NCBI RefSeq assembly: GCF_017656155.1
Contig: NZ_JACDOH010000002.1
Span: 124,001-188,000 of the forward strand
Origin: Thermosyntropha sp.
GTDB lineage: Bacteria > Bacillota > Syntrophomonadia > Syntrophomonadales > Syntrophomonadaceae
DNA: 64,000 nucleotides
Reading direction: 5' to 3'
Shown here in pieces: positions 9,926 through 45,712 of this stretch. Position numbers and translations under genes: made by a program. The notes beneath the pieces were generated by a model. That model was not told the origin of the DNA and made no database searches. It saw nothing but the letters and a program-made list of their open reading frames with translations. The number at the start of each line of letters is the position of its first letter. Positions within the stretch are counted from its first letter, which is position 1.

Positions 9926-10477
9926 TTATTTAAATAAATTCAAATCTATCTGTTTAAACATTTCTCTGTATCCTTCCTGAGTAGGATGTCCTCCATCAGG
10001 AAGGAGCAATTCTTTTCTGAGATTTTTATTTTCATCATAAAAAGCTGCACAGAAGTTTATTATCGGAATATTTTGATTTTGAGTAAAATCTGAAATCCAA
10101 TTTCTAAGATTCTGAAGCACTCTTTCCCATGCTGAATAATCAACCGGAGTAGGAATTCCTAATATCACTTTAATGTTTTGCTCCCTGGCTAAACTTACCA
10201 TTTGTTCAATATTAAAAGTTATTGCAGCCAAGCTTTCACCCTGAACCACATCATTTATTCCCCCGGTGATAATGACGTAATCAGGCTTCAAATCTAAAAC
10301 ATCGCGTTTAAACCTCTGAAGCATATCTTCAGTTGTATTTCCATTAATCCCTTTATTTATTATTACTCCATCGATCGCGGATGACATCATTTTAACCCAG
10401 GAAAATTCCGGGCCATAAGGGAAACCATATGTGATGCTGTCTCCCAGACATACTATTCTTAGTTTATCAGGCATCAT
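9926..10477 (-). CDS. SGNH/GDSL-family lipase or esterase
   Basis: The 183 residues carry all the SGNH blocks: block I CLGDSITYG (Ser near residue 13), the block II region NKGINGNT, block III ITGGINDV (Asn) and block V LPDGGHPTQEG (Asp/His). No signal peptide is visible, so the enzyme is probably cytoplasmic. Such proteins hydrolyse esters or thioesters, including lysophospholipids; the substrate here is not predictable. It converges with the PP-loop gene (8 bases between stops) and lies downstream of the UPF0182 gene. Confidence 0.82.
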   Translation of the reverse strand: MMPDKLRIVCLGDSITYGFPYGPEFSWVKMMSSAIDGVIINKGINGNTTEDMLQRFKRDVLDLKPDYVIITGGINDVVQGESLAAITFNIEQMVSLAREQNIKVILGIPTPVDYSAWERVLQNLRNWISDFTQNQNIPIINFCAAFYDENKNLRKELLLPDGGHPTQEGYREMFKQIDLNLFK

Positions 10478-10508
10478 TTTTCACCCCACCTCAAAAAGTT
10501 CAATATCA

Positions 10509-10541
10509 GAAGAAGCTGGGCTATCTAGCCGCAGCTTCTTC
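10509..10541 (-). terminator. Strong hairpin at the end of the UPF0182 gene
   Basis: A 10-bp stem GAAGAAGCTG/CAGCTTCTTC (10509-10518 with 10532-10541) encloses GGCT/AGCC pairs and overlaps the UPF0182 stop. A clean U-tract is missing on the minus strand (CTGATATTGAACTTTTTG follows), so it may be an imperfect terminator or a mRNA-end stabiliser. Confidence 0.5.
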
Positions 10542-13277
10542 CATCTGTCTTATTACTTCATCCAATTTTTTAATATTTTCACCATAGCCTGCCCAATCAC
10601 CCTCTTGCAATAATTGATTAGCCCTGTCATAATACTGTCTTGCCTGTTTAGCCAACTCTTTTAAATCATCACTAACTACAGGAATTTCAACATTAACATC
10701 AGCCCCAGGAGCAGTTCCCGGCGGTTTAGCCCCTGTTTCACCGAATAGCTTAATAAGTGCAGCATCTAATGTAGGTTCCATAACTATTTTGTTTTCAAAA
10801 GCGGCGATTACCCGTTTTAATTCAGGTATCTTGCCATTTTCTGCTTGCAAATATAATGGCTCTACATAGAGAATAGAATTTTGTATAGGAATAACTAATA
10901 AATTGCCACGATAAACATTTGAACCTCTCTGATCCCACAAACTTATTTGTTGTGAGATATAAGTATCCTGGTTTATTCTGGATTCCAGCTGATTAGGTCC
11001 ATATATGGTTTCATGTTTTGGGAAATTGTAAACCAGCATCTTGCCATAATTTTCCCCATCAATGCGCATACACATCCAAGCTACCATATTAGGTCTATTT
11101 TTAGGAGTAAAAGGAAGCATCAAAATATATTCTTCCTTGGCTTCTTCAGGAAGCCTCATTATTATATAGTAAGGTTCCATTTCTACTGGCTTATTTCCTA
11201 CTATTTCAGTAGGTATAAGCCATATATCCTCTTTGTTATAAAAAACATTGGGGTCAGTCATATGGAAAGTCTGATACATTTTAGCCTGTATAGTAAATAA
11301 TCTGGACGGATATCTTACATGGCTCTTTAATTCTTTCGGCATCGCTTCAATAGGTTTAAATACACCCGGGAATATCTTGCTATAAGTCTTTATAATCGGA
11401 TCTGATTTATCTGCAATATAGAAATCTATCTGACCGGTATATGCATCTACAACTATCTTCACCGCATTCCTTATATAATTATTCCCTTCGCTGTCAAAAG
11501 GCTGTGAATAAGGATACTTTTCTGAATAAGTATATGCATCAATCATCCAGTAAAGCCTGCCATCTGTTGTGTTTATTATTATATATGGATCTTCATCAAA
11601 TTCTAGATAGGGAGCTATCTTTTTAGCTCTTTCTATTATGTTTCTGTTCATTAATATCTGGCTTTCTTCAGTAATATCAGACGAAAGCAGAATCTTGTAA
11701 TCTTTTAATACCCAGGCAAACATCAGCTTTTTAGTTATTGAATCTAATTTTATGCCATTTTTACCACTGTAAAAGCAGTATACATTTTTTTCTCCCATGG
11801 GATAATCAAATTCTTTTTGTTCAGTATTTACGATTACATATGAATCAGTAAGTTCGCCAAAATATATTTCAGGTCTCTTCACTTTCAAGTCTGTTGTAAA
11901 TGCGGGAGGTATATCTTTTATAAAAAAGCGTGGAAAACCTTCTTCTTCTACTTCATTTACCGGACTTACAACCAATCCATAGCCATGTGTATACATAAGC
12001 CGTTCATTTATCCAGGTTCTGGCGTTTTCCGGCAGTTCACCCGGAGAAATTTCCCGCACTGCCAGCATTACCTGACGATACTGTCCATCGATTACATAGC
12101 GATCGATATCTACATCATTAAATACATAATATGGCCGCAGTTCCTGCAAGCTCTTATAAGTTGTAAGCAAAGGCTGCCAGTCCCATAAACGAATATTATT
12201 TATTGTTGGAGCATCTTTTTCATCTCCTATATCAATTTGGTAATTAATGTCAAAATATTTATTCTCTGCTCTATCCAAGCCATAAGCCTGTCTAGTATAT
12301 TTAATAGCGTTTTCAATATATTTCTTTTCTTTACTAAATTCGTTAGGCTGTACTATAAATTTTTGTAAAAGACCGGGGTAAATTCCGCTTAACACTAAAA
12401 CAATCAAAAGCCACAAGCCTATACTGCCTACTATCCAGTTTACCCGTTTTATGAAAATATTTAACAAAATTACCAGCGCAATTATCAAAGAGATTATTAT
12501 CAGAGCTTTATAGGAAACTAAACGGGCATAAACATCAGTATAGGTAGCACCAAAAACTATACCATCAGGTGAAAAGAGAATCTCGTAAGATGCCAGTTTG
12601 TATTTAAAAGCCTGCAGAATAAATATAGCAGCAAAAAGCAGCGCCATATGCCCTTTGGCTACCGTAAACTGACGCCAGTCACCAAACAGAAGATTGGAAG
12701 AGGCATTGAAAAGATATATTGTCCCTGCAACCAGGGTTATCAAAACCAGAGATGACATTAAAATTCCATAAATAAATTGATAAAAAGCCAGATCGAAAAA
12801 GTAGAAGCTGAGGTCTTTCTTAAAAATAGGATCAGTTACATTAAAAGGAACCTGATTTAAATATTGCTGAATTATAATCCATTTATCAGCAACTGAAGAA
12901 CTTATTATAAAGGCAATAAAAAGGCTTATCCCAATAAACACCCAATTAGCATATTTACCTTTTAAAAATTCCTGCCAAGGTGATTTTTGGCGTTCCTCAT
13001 CGAGATATATTACAGTAGGGTCATCGTCAAACTCTTCATAAGCCGGTCCTATATTTTTGCGGGTAAAGATTAAGTTTATGTAGGAAAGCAAAAAAACCCC
13101 AATGAATACAACAGTATATAGAACAACTTTATTTAACAAAATAGTAGTAAAAACTTGTTCAAAATTAATTGACTTAAACCACAGCCAATCGGCATAAAAA
13201 TGAAGAAAAAGCGACAATCCACCTAAAATTAGTAAAAATACAATCAATCTTAAAGTACTCCTGTTGTTTCGCGCCAT
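10521..13277 (-). CDS. UPF0182 (COG1615) large integral membrane protein
   Basis: The 918-residue protein belongs to the uncharacterised UPF0182 family, whose members are about 900-1000 residues. About seven membrane helices fill the first 320 residues. A large, probably extracytoplasmic domain follows, with family blocks such as [39 protein letters not shown] and [16 protein letters not shown] low-complexity segment rich in Pro and Gly precedes the C-terminal helix ([17 protein letters not shown]). ATG 13277 has an AAAGGAGG RBS. It follows the PNP-like gene by 11 bases, so it is probably the last gene of the mqn operon. Function unknown. Confidence 0.85.
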
Positions 13278-32118: not shown

Positions 32119-33594
32119 GTGATCAGAGTGGATCAATATAAGCTTATCAGAGAATTGTACGTAATAGAAGGTTTATCTCAAAGGCAAATTGCAAAAACAT
32201 TAGGAATTTCACGTAATACAGTAAGGCGTTATTGCAATGGAAATAATCTTCCTGGAGAAAGGAAGAATAGTAAACGCAAGCCTTCTGTTGTAACCCCGGA
32301 AATTCGAGCCTTTATTCAGGATTGTCTGGATGAAGATAAAAAGGAGGATGTAAAAAAGCAAAAACATACTGCTAAAAAAATATATGATCGCTTAACTGAA
32401 GAACTTGGCTTTACTGGTGGAGAATCTACCATTCGCCGAGTAGTACATGAAATGAAGGAGAAGATGCCTAAGGTATTTATACCATTATCCTTTTCCCCGG
32501 GCGAAGCAGCACAGGTTGACTGGGGAACGGCTATAGCCTATATAGCTGGACAAAAGACAGAAGTTAATCTCTTCTGTATGCGCCTGTGTTCTAGCTGTAC
32601 ACCTTTTGTTTTTGCATTCCCATCTCAGAGAGAGGAGGCATTTTTAGAAGGACATCAAAGAGCCTTTAAATTTTTTGGTGGAGTACCTAGAGATATTATC
32701 TACGATAATCTTAAAACTGCAGTAAAGGAAGGCTGGGGGAAAACTGCCCGAGAACAAAATAAATTTGCTAAGTTTCGTGCTCATTATGTATATAATTCCC
32801 GTTTTTGTAATCCAGGAGAAGGACATGAAAAAGGGCTGGTGGAAGACCTGGTCGGTTACTCTCGGCGTAATTTTCTTGTACCCCTTCCCCGGGTAGAAAA
32901 CTGGGAGGAACTTAATCAATTACTAATTAAGCGATGCAATAAATACATAGAAGTCCATCACGTTAGAGGCCGGGAATTATCAGTAAAAGAAGCCTTTGAA
33001 CAAGAAAGACAAGCCCTTACCGCTCTGCCAGGAAGACCTTATGAAGCAGCAAAACTAGCAGAAGGTAAAGTTGATTACTTCTCTACCGTTACTTTTGAAA
33101 CCAACCACTACTCTGTACCGGTAAAATGGTCTGGAAGAACAGTAACAGTAAGAGCTACTTCCTTTGAAGTACAAATCTATTACAGGGGAGAACTAATCGC
33201 TTCTCATGAGCGATGCTATCAAAAGTACAAGACCCGATATCAACTTGAACACTACTTACCCTTAATCGAAATGCGACCTCGATCTGTTTTCCATGCAAAA
33301 CCGGTTAAAGAAGCCAGGTTACCCGAGGAATTAGAGATATTTTCCCGTAAACTTAATAATCCGGAAAAAAGCATGGTAAGACTTTTACGTTTGGCTATTG
33401 ATTATGGATACGAAAAAGTAGCCGATGCTATTCGAAAAGCAGATGCAAACAATCAGTATTCGGTGGATGTAGTGCAATTCTACCTCAACGAAACTGAACT
33501 TAAGGTAATAAAGATTAATAATATGGGACCAGCTGTACAAACGGTCGATCTTAAAGCCTACGACATACTTTGTACAGGAGGTGATCGCTTATGA
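32119..33594 (+). CDS. istA: IS21-family transposase IstA
   Basis: The 491-residue DDE transposase has an N-terminal helix-turn-helix (IEGLSQRQIAKTLGISRNTV, residues about 15-34) and an rve/integrase core starting AAQVDWGT (first Asp). The second Asp is in DNLKTAV, and the Glu in GHEKGLVEDLVGYSRR. A Mu-like beta-barrel tail follows. It overlaps istB by 4 bases (ATGA). The gene is open and undamaged, so the element may still move. Confidence 0.92.
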   Translation: MIRVDQYKLIRELYVIEGLSQRQIAKTLGISRNTVRRYCNGNNLPGERKNSKRKPSVVTPEIRAFIQDCLDEDKKEDVKKQKHTAKKIYDRLTEELGFTGGESTIRRVVHEMKEKMPKVFIPLSFSPGEAAQVDWGTAIAYIAGQKTEVNLFCMRLCSSCTPFVFAFPSQREEAFLEGHQRAFKFFGGVPRDIIYDNLKTAVKEGWGKTAREQNKFAKFRAHYVYNSRFCNPGEGHEKGLVEDLVGYSRRNFLVPLPRVENWEELNQLLIKRCNKYIEVHHVRGRELSVKEAFEQERQALTALPGRPYEAAKLAEGKVDYFSTVTFETNHYSVPVKWSGRTVTVRATSFEVQIYYRGELIASHERCYQKYKTRYQLEHYLPLIEMRPRSVFHAKPVKEARLPEELEIFSRKLNNPEKSMVRLLRLAIDYGYEKVADAIRKADANNQYSVDVVQFYLNETELKVIKINNMGPAVQTVDLKAYDILCTGGDRL

Positions 33595-34361
33595 CTGATT
33601 CAGATGTTATTAGTCTTTATGCCAAACAGTTAAGACTGCCCACATTAGCCATGTATTCAGACGTAGTAAGACAGGCAGAAGAAATGGGTTGGGGATATGA
33701 AGAGTTCCTTTGCGAACTTTTACGTCGGGAGTTGAAACAAAGGGAAGAAAACCAGAGAAAACGGAGGATTCATCAAGCACATTTTGCTTTAGACAAAAGT
33801 CTGGATATGTTTGATTTTGATCTTTTACCCAATGTAGAAGAAGCATATATATGGCAACTGGCTAATGGAGAGTTTGTGGAGCGTAAAGAGAATATAATTC
33901 TGATCGGAAATCCGGGATCTGGGAAAACACATTTGGCCATAGGTTTAGGAAGAAGGCTTTGTGGGCTCGGATATCGAGTAAGTTATTACACTGCTGCAAA
34001 TCTAGTCACTGAACTTGGTGAAGCCCAGCAAGATAGACAATTAAGTAAGATAACTCGTAACTTAAACAAATCGGATTTATTAATCCTGGATGAACTATCA
34101 TACCTTAGTTTTACAAGGGCTCAATCTGAATTACTATTTCATGTTTTATCAGATAGGAACGAAAGGGGGAGTGTGATCATAACCACCAATCTTGAGTTTT
34201 CCAAGTGGGGAGAGATTTTTCCCGACAGCATGATGACTGCAGCCCTGGTAGATCGAATAACTCATAATGCTCACATTCTGAATATGAATGCTCAATCATA
34301 CCGACTAAAAGACAGATTAAAAAAATCTAAAGCTTTAAAAGAAGGTGAGAATGACAAGTAG
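33591..34361 (+). CDS. istB: IS21-family helper ATPase IstB
   Basis: The 256-residue AAA+ ATPase is a DnaC-like target-selection helper. Walker A is GNPGSGKTHLAIG (about residues 105-117), Walker B is LLILDELSYL, and sensor-like VIITTNLEFSKW follows. Its start overlaps the istA stop, the standard coupling in IS21 elements. Full length. Confidence 0.92.
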   Translation: MTDSDVISLYAKQLRLPTLAMYSDVVRQAEEMGWGYEEFLCELLRRELKQREENQRKRRIHQAHFALDKSLDMFDFDLLPNVEEAYIWQLANGEFVERKENIILIGNPGSGKTHLAIGLGRRLCGLGYRVSYYTAANLVTELGEAQQDRQLSKITRNLNKSDLLILDELSYLSFTRAQSELLFHVLSDRNERGSVIITTNLEFSKWGEIFPDSMMTAALVDRITHNAHILNMNAQSYRLKDRLKKSKALKEGENDK

Positions 34362-34439
34362 GAAATTAAATTTCATAAAACGATATTAACAAAGTCTGGG
34401 CAAGGTGGCTCAGTTGTTTATTGCATAATAAAAATGGAC

Positions 34440-34770
34440 AGAGTTGCAAAATAAAATCCCCACTTTTGCAACTCAAAAATCCCCAAATTTGCAAAGGTCA
34501 TTGCAGGCACCCCTAAAAAAATTTTACCCTTGTAGTTAGGGACAACTTAACTGCAAGGGAGGAATGGAGGATGCTCACAATGACCCAAATTGATGATATC
34601 AGAAAAGCTTTCTTTATCAAAGGGCAAAATATCAGCGAAATAGCACGCGAGTTTCAGAAGGATAGAAAAACAATACGCAAATATATCTACCGGGAAGACT
34701 GGAACACTAAAGTTAAAACCTCAACTTTCTGACCAAAAAAACTGGCTGAAAAGCCCGAAAAAACAATAAA
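34440..34770 (+). mobile_element. Left end of a second IS21-type element, cut by the IS4 element
   Basis: Terminal-type repeats (TTTTGCAACTCAAAAATCCC, TTTGCAAAG) at about 34440-34500 precede a short istA start at 34571. The element ends at the IS4 edge. No right end was found. Confidence 0.6.
34571..34770 (+). pseudogene. IstA N-terminal fragment of a second IS21-type element
   Basis: MTQIDDIRKAFFIKGQNISE and IAREFQKDRKTIRKYIY match the IstA helix-turn-helix start, different from the intact copy. An in-frame TGA lies at 34730-34732, after which PKKLAEKPEK continues the family sequence until the IS4 element cuts it. Only about 65 of 500 residues are present. Confidence 0.72.
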
Positions 34771-34774
34771 ATAA

Positions 34775-36345
34775 ACAGTAAAAAAACCTGTATTGACACA
34801 AAAAGTGCATCCACGTTTGGTAAAATGTAAAGTGGTAAAAAAACAAAACATTCCAAACAGAAAGGATGCACAAGTTAATGTTACATCAAATCAATCCGTC
34901 TGAAAAGGTTATTAATGAAATTAATAGACTCTTTAAAGAGCTTAAAATCAACCAACTGCTTCGTGCAGCTAACATTAGAAAGTCGCGCGGTGTCAGTGTT
35001 CAGCAGATTTTCGAGTTTATTTTCCTGCTAGCTCTATTTGGCAAGAATCAGTATAGATTCCTGGAGAGCAAACGTGGTCAAGGATTACCTAAGAAAGATG
35101 TATATTACAATTTCTTAAACAATCCACACTATGCATGGAGACGCTTCCTGCTTATGTTGGCGTCCAAAGTCACCGATAAATTTGACCACCTGACATCGGA
35201 TAAAAGAGTTCGAGCTTTTATTATTGACGACTCCCCTATTGCACGAAATCGCAGTAAAAAGGCAGAGCTCTTAGCTAAAGTATTTGACCACAGCAAGCAC
35301 CGTTTCATAAAAGGCTTCAACATGCTGACTCTGGGTTGGACTGAAGGCTATAGCTTTATTCCTGTAGATTTTGCCATGCTAAGTTCTGCCAAAGAAACAA
35401 ACCGTTATAACGGGGTATCTGCTTCCATCGACAAACGCAGTCATGGCTTTAAACGTCGTCTTGAAGCTATGATGCCCAAACCCGATGTTGTGCTTAAGCT
35501 GATTAAAAACGCTTTAAATATCGGTATTACTGCTGATTACGTTCTTATGGACACATGGTTTACCAACGAACCCATGATTAAGGATCTAGGAGCTATTGGT
35601 CTTCATGTGATCGGCATGGTTAAGAACAATCATCGTTATCGTTACAATGGGCAACTGATGAAACTTGACGAAATTCGCAAATGCCTGTATTCAGAAAATA
35701 AGTCTGATATTATCGGCTCATTGTTGTGCGAAACAAAAAGCGGTATCTCGGTAAAATTGGTCTTCATCCGCCATCATAACAATAGAAACAAATGGCTTGT
35801 TATAGCATCAACTGACCTTTCATTGGATGATAAAGAAATCATCCGTATTTACGGTATGCGCTGGGAGATTGAAGTTTTCTTCAAGTCTTCAAAAAGCCTT
35901 TTGAAACTTGGAACCGAGTATCAGGGTCGAAGTTATGACATGCTCATAGCCCATACAACGATAGTTTTCAGCAGATATATTCTGTTGGAATGGGAACGTC
36001 GTCACAACCAAGATTACCGCAGTTTTGGAGATTTATTCTTCCTTTGCTGCGAAGAGATACAAGATTTAGATTATGAAACAGCCTTGAGGCAGTTAATGTA
36101 TTACTGCATGATGCTGCTTGATAATGTTCCCAAGGAACTAGCAAAAATTGTTTCATGTCAAGTAATGTTCTGGATTGCTGCTCAGCCCCTGTATATCCAG
36201 AGGTTGTTCAGTAATTTCTGCTACGAAAGTTGAGTTAATAAATACTGCCTCAGCATTTAATATTGCTGAGATTTAGCAGATTGCCATCTCCAAAATGAGA
36301 GAAATTTTTTCAAAATCAAACAACCTGAACCATTTTTTTACACCC
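34775..36345 (+). mobile_element. IS4-family insertion sequence
   Basis: A complete IS4-type transposase is flanked by related ends: AGTAAAAAAACCTG near 34780, and GTAAAAAAATGGTTCAGG (minus strand) near 36335. It sits inside the second IS21 relic, so it arrived later. The termini are approximate. Confidence 0.65.
34866..36233 (+). CDS. IS4-family transposase
   Basis: The 455-residue DDE transposase appears intact. FIIDDSPIARNRSKK (first Asp, about residue 119), VLMDTWFTNEP (second Asp) and the IS4 YREK-like signature YGMRWEIEVFFKSSKSLLKL (Glu) are in order. The start may be ATG 34866 or ATG 34878; an AAAGGA lies close by. Nothing in the frame is broken, so the element could be active. Confidence 0.9.
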   Translation: MHKLMLHQINPSEKVINEINRLFKELKINQLLRAANIRKSRGVSVQQIFEFIFLLALFGKNQYRFLESKRGQGLPKKDVYYNFLNNPHYAWRRFLLMLASKVTDKFDHLTSDKRVRAFIIDDSPIARNRSKKAELLAKVFDHSKHRFIKGFNMLTLGWTEGYSFIPVDFAMLSSAKETNRYNGVSASIDKRSHGFKRRLEAMMPKPDVVLKLIKNALNIGITADYVLMDTWFTNEPMIKDLGAIGLHVIGMVKNNHRYRYNGQLMKLDEIRKCLYSENKSDIIGSLLCETKSGISVKLVFIRHHNNRNKWLVIASTDLSLDDKEIIRIYGMRWEIEVFFKSSKSLLKLGTEYQGRSYDMLIAHTTIVFSRYILLEWERRHNQDYRSFGDLFFLCCEEIQDLDYETALRQLMYYCMMLLDNVPKELAKIVSCQVMFWIAAQPLYIQRLFSNFCYES

Positions 36346-36374
36346 AGCATTTTGATATAATTTTAGTAAAATGT

Positions 36375-36911
36375 TTGGGGTGATTTATTTGGTGCTACCG
36401 CATGATTTTGGTATTTCAGTTGATGAGTATATAAAGCGCGGAATGAACAACGATTTCCCCGAAATCAAAAGATGCCTCCATTGCAAGGGGCGGATTCGTC
36501 TAACTCGGCATGGTTTCTACTAGCTAAATACCATCATCACTGCCAAACAGAATCGGTTACCGATTTGCCGAATCGTATGCCCTTCCTGCAGAAAAACGGT
36601 CTCTCTGCTGCCATCGTTTTTACATTTCTAGTATGCCGTTCGTTGATGTTGTCCTAGAGAAGCTGCATAAAAATCTGGTGTATGGGGAAATTACCTGCTG
36701 TCATCAACTGGTGCTATTTTACTGGAAGTGCTTCATAAAGAATCTCAACCGGATTGAAATGTTTTTCCGGGCTACAGGCTTTCTCGGTGTGTTACCACAG
36801 GAAACAAAAGAAAAAGCCATAAGGTTGTTGGAAATGCTCCGGACTTTGGGCAAAGCAATCCTTCCAGGAAGGGCCAACGGACATTTCGCAAATAACTTTA
36901 TGGCAAATTAA
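36375..36911 (+). pseudogene. DUF6431 zinc-ribbon protein of a decayed transposon
   Basis: From the ATG near 36371 the frame reads LPHDFGISVDEYIKRGMNND and RCLHCKGRIRLTRHGFY, then a stop. The protein continues across frames (AKQNRLPICRIVCPSCRKTV, then LLPSF; later HQLVLFYWKCFIKNLNRIEM). The CxxC...CxxC zinc ribbon and this order match DUF6431 proteins that accompany Mu-type transposases. At least one stop and two frameshifts. Confidence 0.6.
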
Positions 36912-37048
36912 TTGTACCGTTATCTGCCCCTCCTGAAAATAGATTTTTGCTTCCACAAACCTTTTGCATGGTGAGTTATCCTTTGATTAGTTTAAAATGA
37001 AATCAATAGATGATTAAACGGTTAACCTCCTGAAAAAGGAAGGATTTT

Positions 37049-37898
37049 ATGCAGGAAGAAGATTATGAAAAGTAGCATTATTCCGTTACGGACTCATCGC
37101 GCCCATTTTAAACGGCCAGGTTGCTAACCAGAATAGAAAGAGTATATAGCAGAAGTGGAGAGTAAAGTTCATCAGGTGCCCCATTACGGGCCTAAGGAGT
37201 TTACGCCCAAAACACTGACAGGCTGGCTCCTTGCCTACCGCCGGGCTGGGTTTGAGGAGCTTAAACTCAAACAACTTTCCGACCGAGAGTAACCGTGGAA
37301 ACTCACCCGGAGCAGGAAAAACATCTGCTAGCTTTGCACAGCGAAATGCGAGATATGCCAGTTTCTGTCTTTTATGACCAGCTAGTGGACAAGGGTGAAT
37401 TTCTGCATAAGGATATTTCTTATGCTACGATCTACCATATTTAAAAAAAAAACACGGGATGATAGGCAAAGAGATTGAAAGATTCTTCGGGACAGTAAAG
37501 ACGAGGTTTACGCTACTTCTGAAATCCCAACCGCCTAATTCTATTGATGACTTAAACCGCCAGTTCTGGCAGTGGCTGGAGGAGGATTATCACAGGAAGA
37601 TTCATGCTTCCCTGGGAATGAGTCCTCTGGATATGTACTTATCCCAGGCCAGCCAGATGCGGATGCTTGAAGATCCGGCTTTTCTAAACCCTCTTTTCTT
37701 AAAACGCGAGAAATACAAGGTGAAGCATGACGGGGCTATTTTTGTCAATAACAGACTTTATGAAGTGCTCCACATTTTATTGGCCATAGGATTGAGATCC
37801 GCTTTGACGAGGATGAGGTCTATATCAATTATTTCGGTATCATCCAGAAATTTCTTGAAATATTTGTCGTGGAGGTTTATGATGTCGCTCATTCATAA
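37049..37898 (+). pseudogene. Mu-type/IS481-like transposase, internally deleted and frameshifted
   Basis: The start MQEEDYEK-stop continues in other frames as LFRYGLIAPILNGQVAN and KVHQVPHYGPKEFTPKTLTG, then VSVFYDQLVDKGEFLHKD. The catalytic DDE centre is missing. The sequence resumes at IERFFGTVKTRFTLLLKS and a Mu-C-like tail (HASLGMSPLDMYL). A last frameshift near 37760 moves VNNRLYEV into RIEIRFDEDEVYINYFG, ending at 37898. With the DUF6431 relic it marks an old transposon. Confidence 0.65.
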
Positions 37899-37940
37899 AT
37901 TTCTTCTCTCCAGCTTTGCTTACATTATAAGGTGACAATT

Positions 37941-38220: not shown

Positions 38221-38231
38221 AGGTGATACAT

Positions 38232-39392
38232 ATGGCAACAAACAAAGTAGCAAACTTTTTAAACACAAGCAGCGCTGCAGAATTTCTTGGAATTAGTGTT
38301 TCTACTCTATATCGTATGGTTGAAAAAGGAATTCTTAACCCAATAAAGACTCCAGGTGGTCAACGCAGATTTGATATAACTGAATTAGAGCAATACTTAA
38401 ACATGAGCAAAACAATTATTGCTCCACAGAATCCACGGATGGGCAAAGAACAATCCTTAAAAAACAATGAATCAAATATCAATAGTTTAATCGATTCTAA
38501 AGAAAATGAAACAAAAAATGAGGAAAAAGAGTATTTTCAAGTAGATCCTAGAAATAAACTTAATGACTTAACAGGAAAAGAATGGCTTCCTGAAACTAAA
38601 AGTTTTTTCTTTCAAAAGGGATTGGGAGCCAAACATCCTCATGCACAAATTGAAAGGCAGCATCCAGCCCCATTTTCCTTTCAAGATATTGGCCGATTAA
38701 TTCTTTTTTTTACAAAGCGTGGTCAGAAGGTACTAGATCCGTTTGGCGGGGTCGGTTCAACCGCTAAAGCCTGTGCACTTAATGGAAGAATTTGCACCCA
38801 AATTGAACTTTCCCCGAAATGGCATGAGCTTGCAATTAAGAGATTGGAAACAGAAGTGGCAGAAGGTGAATCATCTAATCACAAATTCATTAATGGAGAT
38901 TGTCGTAAAGTACTTAAAACATTTGAATCAAATATCTTTGATTTTATTGTAACAAGCCCACCATATTGGGCAATTTTAAATAAGCGTGCTGATCATAAAG
39001 TAATCAAAGAACGCGTGAATAATAGCCTGGCTACAAATTATTCCGATAGTGATGATGATTTAGGTAATATTGAAGATTACGGAAAATTTATAAATGTTTT
39101 AGTTAATGATGTTTTTCTCGAGTGCGGTAGGGTTATAAAAGAAGGAAAATATATGTGTATAATAGTTTCTGATTTTAGAAATAAATCAGAGTTTATTAGT
39201 TTTCATAGTGATCTAATTCAAAAGCTTAACAAAGCGGCTATTGATGATAAACATTTTTGGGGACTACAAGGTACTAAGATTCTTATACAAAATCACAAAA
39301 GTCTTTTACCTTATGGATATCCCTTCGCTTATGTGGAAAACATTCATCACCAATACATCTTAATATTTAGAAAAGAAAAACGAAAAAAGTGA
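38232..39392 (+). CDS. DNA methyltransferase with N-terminal MerR/excisionase-type HTH
   Basis: The 386 residues begin with an excisionase/MerR-like helix-turn-helix (about 10-57, SAAEFLGISVSTLYRMVEKG) and a Lys/Glu/Asn-rich linker. A class-I methyltransferase follows with motif I LDPFGGVGST at 168-177 and the catalytic TSPPYW at 241-246. This motif order and the SPPY form suggest an N4-cytosine (or N6-adenine) amino-methyltransferase. ATG 38232 has GAGGTG upstream; the in-frame GTG at 38223 overlaps that RBS. It is first in a four-gene operon and probably protects one strand of an asymmetric site. The HTH could bind the upstream operator (inference). Confidence 0.82.
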   Translation: MATNKVANFLNTSSAAEFLGISVSTLYRMVEKGILNPIKTPGGQRRFDITELEQYLNMSKTIIAPQNPRMGKEQSLKNNESNINSLIDSKENETKNEEKEYFQVDPRNKLNDLTGKEWLPETKSFFFQKGLGAKHPHAQIERQHPAPFSFQDIGRLILFFTKRGQKVLDPFGGVGSTAKACALNGRICTQIELSPKWHELAIKRLETEVAEGESSNHKFINGDCRKVLKTFESNIFDFIVTSPPYWAILNKRADHKVIKERVNNSLATNYSDSDDDLGNIEDYGKFINVLVNDVFLECGRVIKEGKYMCIIVSDFRNKSEFISFHSDLIQKLNKAAIDDKHFWGLQGTKILIQNHKSLLPYGYPFAYVENIHHQYILIFRKEKRKK

Positions 39393-39402
39393 GGGATGTC
39401 AA

Positions 39403-40233
39403 ATGGAGATGGAGTATAACAAAGTTTATTGTGGCAACAGCGATGAATTATTAATTGAAATGATAAAAAAAGGAATGCGCTTTGATTTAATTCTCACGGA
39501 TCCACCTTATAATCTTAATAAAGATTTTGGTAATGATAGCGACAAATTACTATTAAAAGAATTTTTAGACATAACAAAAAAGCGTATTGAAAACTGCAAG
39601 AGTTTGTTAAACGATACCGGCAGTATTATTTGGTTTGGAATTCATAATTATATTGGTTATATCCAAGTAATTATGTATGAAGCTGGTCTCTATTACCGTC
39701 GTATGAATATTTGGCATTATAAAAATGGTTTTAGTCGTGTTAAAACTGTTCCAACAGCTCAATATGAGCCATTTTTATGGTTTTCAAAATCAAACAAAAA
39801 ATGGACATATAATTATGATGATATTAGAATACCGTATAAAAGTGCAGAACGATTAAAAAATCCAGTTTATTATACAGGAGCAAATGGAGAGAGAAAAAAA
39901 TGGACTCCTAATCCTTTAGGTGCATTACGAGGAGATATCTGGGAGTATCCAACATTAGCAGGTAAATTATTCAAAGAAGAGAAGACGGAGCATCCTACAC
40001 AAAAACCCGAATCTTTAATTACAGATTTAATTAAAGCTTTTTGTCCTAAAAACAAAGATGGTTTATATGAAGGCACAATACTCGACCCATTTCACGGTTC
40101 TGGCACTTTGGGTGTTTGTTGTGAAAAGTTAAATGCAGAAGGACATAAGATAAAATGGATCGGTATTGAAATCGAGCAAAAATGGTGTGATGTTGCCAAT
40201 AATAGGCTTGCGAAAATAAAAAATTTGCTATAA
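39403..40233 (+). CDS. DNA methyltransferase, DPPY type (second modification enzyme)
   Basis: The 276-residue methyltransferase has LTDPPYNLNKDFG near residue 30 and motif I TILDPFHGSGTLGVCC near 225, the beta-class order. DPPY favours N6-adenine. It lies 10 bases after the first methyltransferase, with a GAGGGATG RBS. Two different methyltransferases with one nuclease are usual for type IIS systems, where the two strands of the site differ. The target sequence cannot be read from the gene. Confidence 0.87.
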   Translation: MEMEYNKVYCGNSDELLIEMIKKGMRFDLILTDPPYNLNKDFGNDSDKLLLKEFLDITKKRIENCKSLLNDTGSIIWFGIHNYIGYIQVIMYEAGLYYRRMNIWHYKNGFSRVKTVPTAQYEPFLWFSKSNKKWTYNYDDIRIPYKSAERLKNPVYYTGANGERKKWTPNPLGALRGDIWEYPTLAGKLFKEEKTEHPTQKPESLITDLIKAFCPKNKDGLYEGTILDPFHGSGTLGVCCEKLNAEGHKIKWIGIEIEQKWCDVANNRLAKIKNLL

Positions 40234-40334: not shown

Positions 40335-42053
40335 ATGATAAGGTTTCCTAATCCGGGATCTGATATTCCAACCTTTATACATATCTTTCAAACAATTTAT
40401 ACATATTTAAGCGATTATAAAGTTTTTACCTTAGATGATATGTCTCAAACACTAACGAAAATGAATTTAGCTGCTTCCTCAGGTTATGTCGGCGAGCAAG
40501 CTTTAAAACTATCTACTAGAAAAGATCGCAGCAGAGATCCGTTATATAATCAATCAAAAATGTATGCCGAATTATATCGATCCTTGGGTTGGATAACTTC
40601 CAGCGAAGAAAAGGCGCTTCTATTTTCATTTACACTTCTAGGTGAACATATGGCAGCGGCTAAAATCGATCCAAAATCCATTTTTGAGGAAAGTGTTTTA
40701 GGGATTAATTACCCAAATCAAGTTATTGATAATAAAAATGAAAACGCATCAAGGACTTTTGCCACTATTCTTCTTACCGCTTATGAACTAGATGGCTATA
40801 TTTGTCGTGATGAAATTATTGTAGGTCCTTTAAATATTGATGATACCGACTTAAGGGCTTTTTCATCAATGATTGATTACATAAAAGCAATGCGGGGTGA
40901 TATTAGAAAACTTCATGGAGCTATATTAGAATTGTCTAAAAGAATAAAAATTCAAATTAATACTATGCAAAACTATACTAGATTTCCAATGTCCGTATTA
41001 ACATACTGTGGTTGGTTTGAAAAAGTTAGGCAAAATATCTTGTACCCTAATGGACGAAACATGGTTATCCTAAAAATGACCCAATATGGTCGAGAAAAAG
41101 CTGAATGGCTTAAGAGAGTTCTAGATATACGTACAGAACATTTTGAAAAGATGGACGAAGCTGTTAAGCCTGCTATGATTAGACTTGGCTTTTATACAAT
41201 GCTACAAAGGGCTAATTTTGATGTTACACCTGTTTATGATAGCATTGCTAAGGATTCAGTTGCATTAAGTAAACATATTGGTGATAAAGAGTTACTTTTT
41301 TCTCCTTATCAGACTATCAAAACACCTATTGTAAATTCTGCACTTGGAATTGAATACACCCCATCATCTTCAGACATAAAAGAGTATAACCGAATTGTAG
41401 CGGAAACTAAAGACATTTATAAAATAACAGCCGCACCAAAAGGAACTGTGAGATTGTTGCGCCAGACTTCGACAGACACATTATCTTTAAAAGAGGAATC
41501 AGAAATTTCAAAAAAGATAAAAAGCATGATAAATGATGGTAAAGAAGATCAAGAAATTGTAGATTCATTGTTTGCTGAATACCACAATGCAACTCAAACT
41601 GTGTTTTATCCATTAATTGCTGATTTATTTTGTATATTAGGATTTAATTGTACTGCCACAAGAGCAGGCATAAACTATGAAAGATGGGACGCAATTGCAA
41701 TTGACGATGACTTTACAATACCCATTGAAATAAAATCCCCCTCAGAAGAAGAATATATTTCTATAAAAGCTGTGCGCCAGGCACTAGAAAATAAAATAAT
41801 CCTCTTATCTCGCAAGACTTATAATACGGATTGGGATACAGTTAGTTTAGCAGTTGGCTATCATATGCCTCATGATCGTGCAGAGGTAGGACGATTGATT
41901 GATGATATAAAGTTTGCATTCAATATTAAAATCGGAATCATAGATTTTAAATCGCTGTTGATAATGGCTATAAAAACTCTACGCGGTAGCGCATATATCG
42001 ACCCACAAGAAATCAGAAAGATGGAGGGTTTAATAAATGTCGAAAATTCTTAA
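40335..42053 (+). CDS. AlwI-like type IIS restriction endonuclease
   Basis: The 572 residues resemble the AlwI endonuclease family. The N-terminus (IRFPNPGSDIPTFIHIFQTI, YRSLGWITSS) is the DNA-recognition part. The C-terminal nuclease core is PD-(D/E)xK: Asp452 in YERWDAIAIDD and Glu465-Ile-Lys467 in IPIEIKSPSE, followed by QALENKI. AlwI-type enzymes cut outside an asymmetric site, which fits the two upstream methyltransferases. An AAGGAGG RBS precedes ATG 40335. Its last 17 bases overlap the next gene. I do not predict the recognition site. Confidence 0.78.
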   Translation: MIRFPNPGSDIPTFIHIFQTIYTYLSDYKVFTLDDMSQTLTKMNLAASSGYVGEQALKLSTRKDRSRDPLYNQSKMYAELYRSLGWITSSEEKALLFSFTLLGEHMAAAKIDPKSIFEESVLGINYPNQVIDNKNENASRTFATILLTAYELDGYICRDEIIVGPLNIDDTDLRAFSSMIDYIKAMRGDIRKLHGAILELSKRIKIQINTMQNYTRFPMSVLTYCGWFEKVRQNILYPNGRNMVILKMTQYGREKAEWLKRVLDIRTEHFEKMDEAVKPAMIRLGFYTMLQRANFDVTPVYDSIAKDSVALSKHIGDKELLFSPYQTIKTPIVNSALGIEYTPSSSDIKEYNRIVAETKDIYKITAAPKGTVRLLRQTSTDTLSLKEESEISKKIKSMINDGKEDQEIVDSLFAEYHNATQTVFYPLIADLFCILGFNCTATRAGINYERWDAIAIDDDFTIPIEIKSPSEEEYISIKAVRQALENKIILLSRKTYNTDWDTVSLAVGYHMPHDRAEVGRLIDDIKFAFNIKIGIIDFKSLLIMAIKTLRGSAYIDPQEIRKMEGLINVENS

Positions 42054-43095
42054 CCAAAAGAATTACAAACAATCTATATTATTAATGAAATCTGATGAAC
42101 GAATATTAGAGATATTACATGTACCAAATAAACCTTCGATTTTGAAAAGAACGCAATCATCATGCAGTGCTTGCTGTATTAGCTGTGTAACTCCTTATTG
42201 TATGAAATATTTACCGGAAGAAATAACACCACAAAGCAAGTATTTTAATGCTTTCCCTGTGGATGTGAACGATAATGTATGTCCAACCTCAGCAATCTCA
42301 TGGGATAAAGAGAGTTTGACTCCATCAATTAATGAAAAATTATGTATTAATTGCGGTTTATGTGCTTCTAGATGTCCAGCAGGTGCAATTTATTTAACAA
42401 GTAAATGTGCAGTAGTCAATTTTGATATTAATTTGGTTGAAAAAGTAGATTTTACAGAGGAAACATATTCATTACATATAAATCAAATTCAGAACCTGTT
42501 GAAAGCTAAACATATTGGGCAAATGCTTAAAGAATCTGAGAAGCAAATGGCTACAATTTACCAGAAAATTGCATCTATTAATACTGATGCGCAGTTTCCA
42601 AATCTTTTTACAAGAAACCTTCTTATTCAAACAGGAAATCGTTGTTTCATACGACGAAGAGGTGATGTATATTTACGAATGGATGTCATTATGGAACTTA
42701 GTGATTCCGTCGCAATAATTGAAGTTGAATTCAATAAAGATTCTCTCGAATCACCAAGAGCAATACTAGATGATATTGCTGTATTAGTTTCTAGATATGG
42801 AATTAATATAGAGCTTATTAAACCGTTTATTGTATGCTTAGAGTTTCCAAACATTCGCACAGAATACTGGCGAGTTATAAAGGATATTGCTAACGTTCTG
42901 AAAATTAATATTAATTCATTAAGTATAGGTGTTTTAATTTTATTTGTCTGGAACTTTAAAAAAATAAATTTTTCCCAAATACCCTTTTATGCAGATATCG
43001 ACAAAGCTTCAATTAAACAAGAAGTCCAGACTGCTATAGGTTTTGACCTCAATCTAACCAGTGAAAACTGTGCTATACTCGAACCCAAGAAATAA
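42037..43095 (+). CDS. Ferredoxin-like [4Fe-4S] protein fused to a possible nuclease domain, coupled to the endonuclease
   Basis: I do not recognise this 352-residue protein as a whole. Cysteines C43, C46, C50 with C82-P, and C103, C106, C109 with C113-P, follow the crossed pattern of 2[4Fe-4S] ferredoxins (CINCGLCASRCPAGAI is textbook). C47 and C55 are extra. After a helical linker (about 130-185), residues 205-260 read RRRGDVYLRMDVIMELSD and AIIEVEFNKD, with D216, E229 and E231. The D...E-x-E spacing resembles the BamHI variant of PD-(D/E)xK. It overlaps the AlwI-like gene by 17 bases with GGAGGG before ATG 42037, so the two are made together. Second cleavage subunit, redox sensor or specificity partner are options. 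Confidence 0.7.
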   Translation: MSKILNQKNYKQSILLMKSDERILEILHVPNKPSILKRTQSSCSACCISCVTPYCMKYLPEEITPQSKYFNAFPVDVNDNVCPTSAISWDKESLTPSINEKLCINCGLCASRCPAGAIYLTSKCAVVNFDINLVEKVDFTEETYSLHINQIQNLLKAKHIGQMLKESEKQMATIYQKIASINTDAQFPNLFTRNLLIQTGNRCFIRRRGDVYLRMDVIMELSDSVAIIEVEFNKDSLESPRAILDDIAVLVSRYGINIELIKPFIVCLEFPNIRTEYWRVIKDIANVLKININSLSIGVLILFVWNFKKINFSQIPFYADIDKASIKQEVQTAIGFDLNLTSENCAILEPKK

Positions 43096-45038: not shown

Positions 45039-45416
45039 ATGTTGCAAACAACCCAACTGGGAGGTGTTAATTCTATGTTGAAAAAACGTATTTCCGTATC
45101 AAAGAAACGACAGATAACTATTCCTATAGAATTTTTCAATCGTCTCGGTATTGAAAAGGAAGTTGACTGCTATCTACAAAACGATGCTATTATTATCCGC
45201 CCTGTGCGTGAAAACACCGGCGAATTCGATGAACAAATCCTTGCCGACTTAATATCTCAAGGTCTTTCCGGGACTGAGCTTCTTGAAAAGTTTAAGGAAA
45301 TGCGGCGCAAGGTTCGTCCTGCTGTTGAACGCTTGCTTGATGAAGCCTACCTTGCTACTGCCGGTAAAGCCAGTTTTTTCACGTATGAAGATGTTTTCGG
45401 TGAGGAAGACGAATGA
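45039..45416 (+). CDS. AbrB/SpoVT-type antitoxin
   Basis: The 125-residue protein has an N-terminal swapped-hairpin AbrB domain (KRISVSKKRQITIPIEFFNR) and a C-terminal toxin-binding tail (VRPAVERLLDEAYL, FFTYEDVFGEEDE). It would bind its own promoter repeat and neutralise the downstream toxin. Two starts have RBSs: ATG 45039 (AAAAGGTGA) and ATG 45075 (GGGAGGTG); the second gives the usual AbrB length. It overlaps the toxin gene by 4 bases. Confidence 0.82.
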   Translation: MLQTTQLGGVNSMLKKRISVSKKRQITIPIEFFNRLGIEKEVDCYLQNDAIIIRPVRENTGEFDEQILADLISQGLSGTELLEKFKEMRRKVRPAVERLLDEAYLATAGKASFFTYEDVFGEEDE

Positions 45417-45712
45417 TGTATAAGCTTATTATTCTGCCTCCTGCTGCCCGTTTTTTAAAAAAGCTGAAAGAAAAACCTCTCAAAGCAGCTTTTCAAAAAG
45501 CCGTTGATGAAATCCTCAAGAATCCTTATATAGGTGAACCTAAAACGGGCGATCTTTCTGGTGTCTTTTGTTATGATATCTATTACAACAAAACAAACTA
45601 TGAGCTGGCCTATACAATCATCGAAGAAGGCGATTCAACCATTGTTGTAATTCTTGCCGGTACCCGTGAAAATTTTTATGAAGAATTGAAACGATATATG
45701 AAAAACCTTTAA
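45413..45712 (+). CDS. RelE/ParE-family toxin
   Basis: The 99-residue basic protein shows the RelE/ParE fold pattern: YKLIILPPAARFLKKLKEKP, GEPKTGDLSGVFCYDIYY, YELAYTIIEE and AGTRENFYEELKRYM. RelE-type toxins cleave mRNA on the ribosome; ParE types poison gyrase. The residues that separate these are not decisive here. Coupled to the antitoxin by an ATGA overlap. Confidence 0.82.
   Translation: MMYKLIILPPAARFLKKLKEKPLKAAFQKAVDEILKNPYIGEPKTGDLSGVFCYDIYYNKTNYELAYTIIEEGDSTIVVILAGTRENFYEELKRYMKNL

Follow-up and report, generated by a model that had tools for sequence, protein, structure and literature searches.

A probable heterodimeric type IIS restriction endonuclease from Thermosyntropha sp. 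with a predicted ferredoxin-bearing second subunit

The window, by which we mean the whole 64,000-nucleotide stretch of a Thermosyntropha sp. contig that was analysed, carries a restriction-modification cassette of four genes: two DNA methyltransferase genes (M1 and M2), a gene for a large nuclease subunit (R) and a gene for a protein with a ferredoxin-type domain, hereafter the Fe-S subunit (Table 1). Judged by its motif, M1 is probably of the N4-cytosine type, and M2 is probably of the N6-adenine type. The hairpin found between M2 and R (AAACCTTTCATCG AAA CGATGAAAGGTTT) lacks a strong T-run, has no second copy in the window and possibly attenuates expression of the nuclease genes; it was not seen as a feature common to relatives, and in one related cassette (L007) the M2-R gap is only 22 bases long, so that there is no space for a hairpin there. 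With a G+C content of 0.329, the cassette lies below the window as a whole (0.359), and it looks acquired.

Table 1. Features of the restriction cassette, with positions in the window
Feature	Position	Strand	Basis or remark
M1, DNA methyltransferase, N-terminal HTH_17	38223..39392	+	PF01555 8.7e-21, HTH_17 3.4e-12; N6_N4_Mtase, TSPPYW
M2, DNA methyltransferase, DPPY motif	39403..40233	+	PF01555 2.9e-47
M2-R intergenic inverted repeat, 13-bp arms without mismatch, 3-base loop	40277..40305	.	-23.1 kcal/mol, z -3.87
R, large subunit, 572 aa: predicted DNA recognition and one PD-(D/E)xK catalytic domain	40335..42053	+	Fold search with model
R catalytic domain, residues 408-548	41556..41978	+	Stretch matched by the small-subunit domain profile
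R residues D452, E465, K467	41688-41690, 41727-41729, 41733-41735	+	Invariant in 7
GGAGG ribosome-binding site for the Fe-S subunit gene, within the end of R	42023..42027	+	Purine-rich site at the equivalent place in 7/7 loci
Overlap of R and Fe-S subunit genes, 17 bases	42037..42053	+	Same length in 5/7 loci
Fe-S subunit gene	42037..43095	+	352 aa; predicted second restriction-enzyme subunit
2[4Fe-4S] ferredoxin-type domain, residues 41-122	42157..42402	+	Fer4 in 7/7; eight Cys invariant in 7/7
PD-(D/E)xK-type nuclease domain of Fe-S subunit, residues 180-305	42574..42951	+	Profile homology to R's catalytic domain; best-conserved part of the protein
Catalytic-position residues of Fe-S subunit: D216, E229, E231	42682-42684, 42721-42723, 42727-42729	+	Invariant in 7

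The surroundings hold mobile elements and a small gene pair. Insertion sequences lie upstream of the cassette (32119-37935), with an IS21-type pair (32119-34361) and a DDE transposase (34866-36233), and two ORFs of 92 and 158 aa in the same flank resemble remnants. Close to the cassette on its other side, an AbrB-like/RelE-like pair recognised by eye (45039-45712) is probably a toxin-antitoxin module.

An earlier note on this DNA, made from the sequence alone, had described the Fe-S subunit gene as a 352-aa reading frame that overlaps R by 17 bases, and this description was borne out: the ORF is intact and its ATG lies within the stretch shared with R. Further copies detected in genome and viral collections bring the number of homologues to seven including the window copy, a small set of which several come from metagenome-assembled genomes (MAGs). 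The six others belong to a Defluviitaleaceae MAG (L007), an Actinobacteria MAG (L008), a Flavobacteriaceae MAG (L009), a viral-classified contig (L010) and two genomes from the class of L007 (L028 and L029). All seven proteins carry both domains, and all seven genes sit immediately 3' of an R gene in a four-gene cassette with two methyltransferases, orthologues of M1 and M2 being present in each of the six other cassettes. The arrangement is M1-M2-R-FeS in the window, L007 and L008, R-FeS facing M2-M1 in L009, L010 and L029, and R-FeS-M1-M2 in L028. Since the order of R and the Fe-S gene is the same in every locus and their overlap is kept (five loci share a length of 17 bases, and the others have 29 and 14), while the placement of the methyltransferases varies, the R-FeS pair appears to move as a unit to which methyltransferases are re-attached.

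The Fe-S proteins are 33-63% identical to each other, and their pairwise distances correlate with those of the R proteins (Mantel r 0.80, p 0.0095). Taken at the level of sequence, the retention of eight cysteines, of the D/ExE residues and of the R neighbour in all seven cases is more than chance would give. When R's catalytic domain was searched against 283 genomes of one class, R was always found with an Fe-S gene, bar one copy cut by a contig end, and the collections searched contained neither an Fe-S protein without R nor a complete R locus without the Fe-S gene. The earlier note had named homologues lying mostly away from restriction genes as an outcome that would speak against its reading, and had called for a survey of homologues beside AlwI-like genes; none of the seven is away from R, so the former proved false, and the survey showed an R gene beside every homologue, R itself having no match to the Pfam RE_AlwI family. 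The protein is rare: a sample of four groups, approximately 1,050 genomes in all, contained 6 genomes with it, and 4 of these 6 were the starting genomes of the searches. No relative of its C-terminal domain was detected in plasmid and phage collections, the plasmids also lacking any relative of R, and no related nuclease, judged by annotation, neighbours the distant relatives of M1 and M2. Further class-level matches to the whole protein, among them a gene in G047 that resembles a glycyl-radical activating enzyme, concern mainly the ferredoxin part and were rejected.

Two side observations were made on these loci. The M1 proteins of L007 (2011-2934) and L008 (1922-2968) seem to lack the HTH_17 domain that M1 has in the window, L009, L010 and L028, and this domain may be a regulatory add-on. 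In L010, the neighbours include two genes (2-2719 and 10095-12977) whose products have no Pfam match: one, of 906 aa, contains a DCDGD motif and may be an RNA polymerase of the phage type, and the other measures 960 aa.

Pfam recognises only a 4Fe-4S domain in the Fe-S subunit (Fer4, residues 97-119, 1.5e-7, above the curated cut-off), and weaker dicluster models extend the match back to residue 43. The window protein has 14 cysteines, eight of which are invariant among the seven homologues, namely C47, C50, C55, C82, C103, C106, C109 and C113; a proline follows C82 and C113 in the alignment, giving the two-cluster ferredoxin pattern C47, C50, C55, C82-P plus C103, C106, C109, C113-P. The eight-cysteine ferredoxin pattern proposed in the earlier note thus stands, but its assignment of C43 and C46 does not, as these two are not conserved and the first-cluster set is the one given here. 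The first motif has an unusual spacing (CxxCx4C, with the fourth cysteine 27 residues further on), and the window protein bears a 26-residue insert in it. Mean pairwise identity among the seven proteins is 45% in the ferredoxin part, 54% in the nuclease part and 27-29% in the linker and N-terminus, so that the ferredoxin part is as conserved as expected of a working domain, and the N-terminal domain is predicted to carry two [4Fe-4S] clusters. An architecture of the Cas4/AddB/Dna2 kind, in which cysteines bracket the nuclease domain, was rejected because no cysteine after residue 113 is invariant.

The D216 and E229-x-E231 that had been pointed out as possible nuclease residues are present and do not vary among the seven homologues. 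Using a profile of residues 151-352, we found that the sole match per genome beyond the protein's own family was the catalytic domain of the adjoining R gene (E 1.8e-8 in its own genome; 2.3e-10, 4.9e-9, 6.4e-9 and 3.3e-7 in four others; 3.7e-10 in G593). At E<=0.001, the R gene of G523, one of the seven genomes, was not matched, and neither was anything in approximately 1,040 further genomes. Conversely, R's catalytic domain used as a query retrieved the Fe-S subunit (E 2.8e-11 and 3.1e-7), and a profile-profile alignment of the two nuclease domains (94.9%, E 4.1e-8) spanned residues 165-304 of the Fe-S protein, pairing D216 with D452, E229 with E465 and E231 with K467. Judged by these profile comparisons, the C-terminal domain of the Fe-S subunit is a diverged paralogue of R's own catalytic domain. 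HMMER profiles of R and of the C-terminal domain of the Fe-S subunit gave no meaningful match among solved structures; complex I subunits were rejected as relatives, their matches covering about 60 residues at E 0.4-1.

The AlphaFold model of the Fe-S protein, built from a five-sequence alignment, was unusably poor (pLDDT 42), so that the nuclease fold assigned here rests on profile homology; in a Foldseek search, this model reached Nt.BspD6I and FokI only at E ~0.15, too weak for use. The model of R shows the same order of elements as this poor model (helix, three strands, helix, strand, helix), which agrees with the homology but is weak evidence. A clear non-nuclease fold for residues 180-352, which the earlier note would have counted against itself, did not appear, though a model of this quality yields no usable structure on which such a fold could have shown.

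R is matched by neither a Pfam nor an NCBIfam family. The earlier note had called it AlwI-like, and BstNBI is grouped with AlwI in the Pfam RE_AlwI family (PF09491). BstNBI is identical to BspD6I (PMC4081073). Against RE_AlwI, R remained unmatched at E<=1 and its whole genome at E<=0.01, and hhalign gave its N-terminal half only a faint, non-significant probability of 1.4% (E 0.038). A Foldseek search with the AlphaFold model of R (five sequences, mean pLDDT 57.7) returned eight Nt.BspD6I chains as best matches (E 8.7e-8 to 1.7e-6), followed by FokI (3.7e-6); the TM-scores were low, about 0.25, so that the placement of R's domains in the model is unreliable. A HMMER profile of R searched against solved structures gave no link to Nt.BspD6I. 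As a Pfam family match the AlwI-like label fails, but the fold search makes it fairly clear that R belongs with Nt.BspD6I and FokI.

Considering these data together, we think it probable that R and the Fe-S protein form a heterodimeric type IIS/IIT restriction endonuclease, in which R cuts one strand and the Fe-S protein is the second, smaller catalytic subunit. The earlier note had already suggested that the Fe-S protein might be the second subunit of a type IIS enzyme, and the paralogy with R and the absence of any homologue away from R now support this well. R would bind an asymmetric site and cut one strand. The C-terminal domain of the Fe-S subunit, an old duplicate of R's PD-(D/E)xK domain with lysine changed to glutamate as in the ExE site of BamHI, would then dock on the R-DNA complex and cut the other strand. 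Its N-terminal domain would fold around two [4Fe-4S] clusters, presumed structural, that shape the subunit and/or mediate its binding to R or DNA; a double-strand break would then require the holo-protein. M1 and M2 would share the protection of the site, one strand each.

The contact between R and the Fe-S protein is one that we infer rather than see directly, and the Fe-S protein might instead be an independent effector or redox protein carried along in the operon. We consider this most improbable: its nuclease domain copies that of R, the two genes overlap in all seven loci while the methyltransferase genes move, and the collections searched held no Fe-S gene without R and no complete R locus without the Fe-S gene.

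Whether the Fe-S subunit cuts at all is a more serious question. The motif D...E-x-K is the classical PD-(D/E)xK active site, and its lysine is replaced by glutamate in all seven Fe-S subunits, both acids being kept; R's Gln482 is lost as well in the profile-profile alignment. This change could mean that catalysis was lost, in which case the C-terminal domain would pair with that of R like a second FokI monomer without cutting, and the complex would nick, or R would cut both strands in turn, with the Fe-S protein merely licensing it. We hold this to be unlikely. D216, E229 and E231 fall precisely on the active-site positions and do not vary among proteins as divergent as these, and BamHI catalysis requires both E111 and E113 (PMC8845596), so that an ExE site can be active. 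In addition, the described small subunits of the BspD6I/BtsI plan do cut the second strand (PMC4081073).

If the Fe-S protein is indeed the second catalytic subunit, its clusters most likely have a structural or docking role, by analogy with AddB and Dna2, in which an Fe-S cluster is a structural staple of the nuclease domain (PMC4716839). The invariance of the two-cluster motif could alternatively reflect a redox or oxygen switch, akin to the redox-gated partner that the earlier note had offered as its other reading, whereby oxidation or loss of a cluster stops second-strand cutting, turns a double-strand cutter into a nickase and makes restriction depend on the cell's anaerobic state or iron status. 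COX1 (haem-copper oxidase) is absent from five of six host genomes checked, including that of the window, and these five possess pyruvate:ferredoxin-type oxidoreductase (POR) genes, so their hosts look anaerobic, as a switch of this kind might lead one to expect. The sixth (G447, with L009), however, has four COX1-family matches and no POR and looks aerobic; either an aerobic host uses an Fe-S enzyme, or its 5.7-kb contig is misbinned. The cassette also lacks a sensory partner gene, and the AddB and Dna2 precedent points to structure. We give the switch slightly less credit than a subunit without catalysis. The compound proposal that double-strand cutting depends on the ferredoxin domain and that the cluster state (redox, oxygen, iron supply) decides between a nick and a break in invading DNA is likewise a doubtful one.

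In the PMC literature searched, which leaves most subscription journals outside, no restriction endonuclease with an Fe-S cluster or a ferredoxin domain is reported, in line with the earlier note's statement that it knew of no such combination. As far as could be checked, the heterodimeric plan is already known and the ferredoxin-bearing subunit is new. If our reading is true, an Fe-S protein joins the best-studied class of DNA-cutting enzymes, which also suggests why such an enzyme may escape notice when extracts are handled in air; the pair would offer a small test case for structural versus regulatory Fe-S clusters in nucleases, and R alone would be expected to act as a new nicking enzyme.

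Several known systems resemble the cassette in part. Cas4, AddB and Dna2 also combine a PD-(D/E)xK-type nuclease and an Fe-S cluster in one chain, but in AddB and Dna2 one cluster staples extensions of the nuclease domain (PMC4716839), whereas here a separate N-terminal ferredoxin domain has two predicted clusters. BamHI shares D...E-x-E in place of D...E-x-K; it is a homodimeric type IIP enzyme, and we claim no relation past the motif. The RE_AlwI family shares the type IIS character, the FokI-like plan and the partner methyltransferases, but the members compared have PD...CEVT where R has D...EIK.

The closest likeness is with the type IIT enzymes, which consist of a large recognising and nicking subunit, a small second-strand subunit and two methyltransferases (PMC4081073; BtsI in PMC2909958). 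In BspD6I, BtsI and BsrDI, the second strand is cut by a small subunit that has no specificity, and protection of both strands generally falls to two methyltransferases (PMC4081073; PMC2909958; PMC6261011). The BtsI small subunit is inactive alone, and ss.BspD6I is active solely alongside a catalytically active large subunit (PMC6261011). R.BspD6I (BstNBI; Nt.BspD6I plus ss.BspD6I) is likewise a two-gene type IIS enzyme with the second gene downstream; its large subunit (604 aa, against 572 aa for R) has a similar build by fold search, and ss.BspD6I, which carries the other catalytic site, measures 186 aa against approximately 172 aa for the nuclease part of the Fe-S subunit. Unlike the latter, ss.BspD6I is too short at this length for an additional 2[4Fe-4S] domain (PMC4081073), and the sequences of BspD6I and the cassette proteins are too distant for HMMER to connect. 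BtsI and BsrDI, likened here by description, have no Fe-S domain described in the literature searched. In the cassette, the paralogous domains, conserved acids and overlapping genes point to two catalytic sites on two co-encoded chains, R appears related to Nt.BspD6I and FokI by Foldseek (a moderate model, TM ~0.25), and two methyltransferases, presumably one per strand, occur in all seven cassettes. Every gene of the BspD6I/BtsI/BsrDI plan is thus present, with a second catalytic domain that copies the first.
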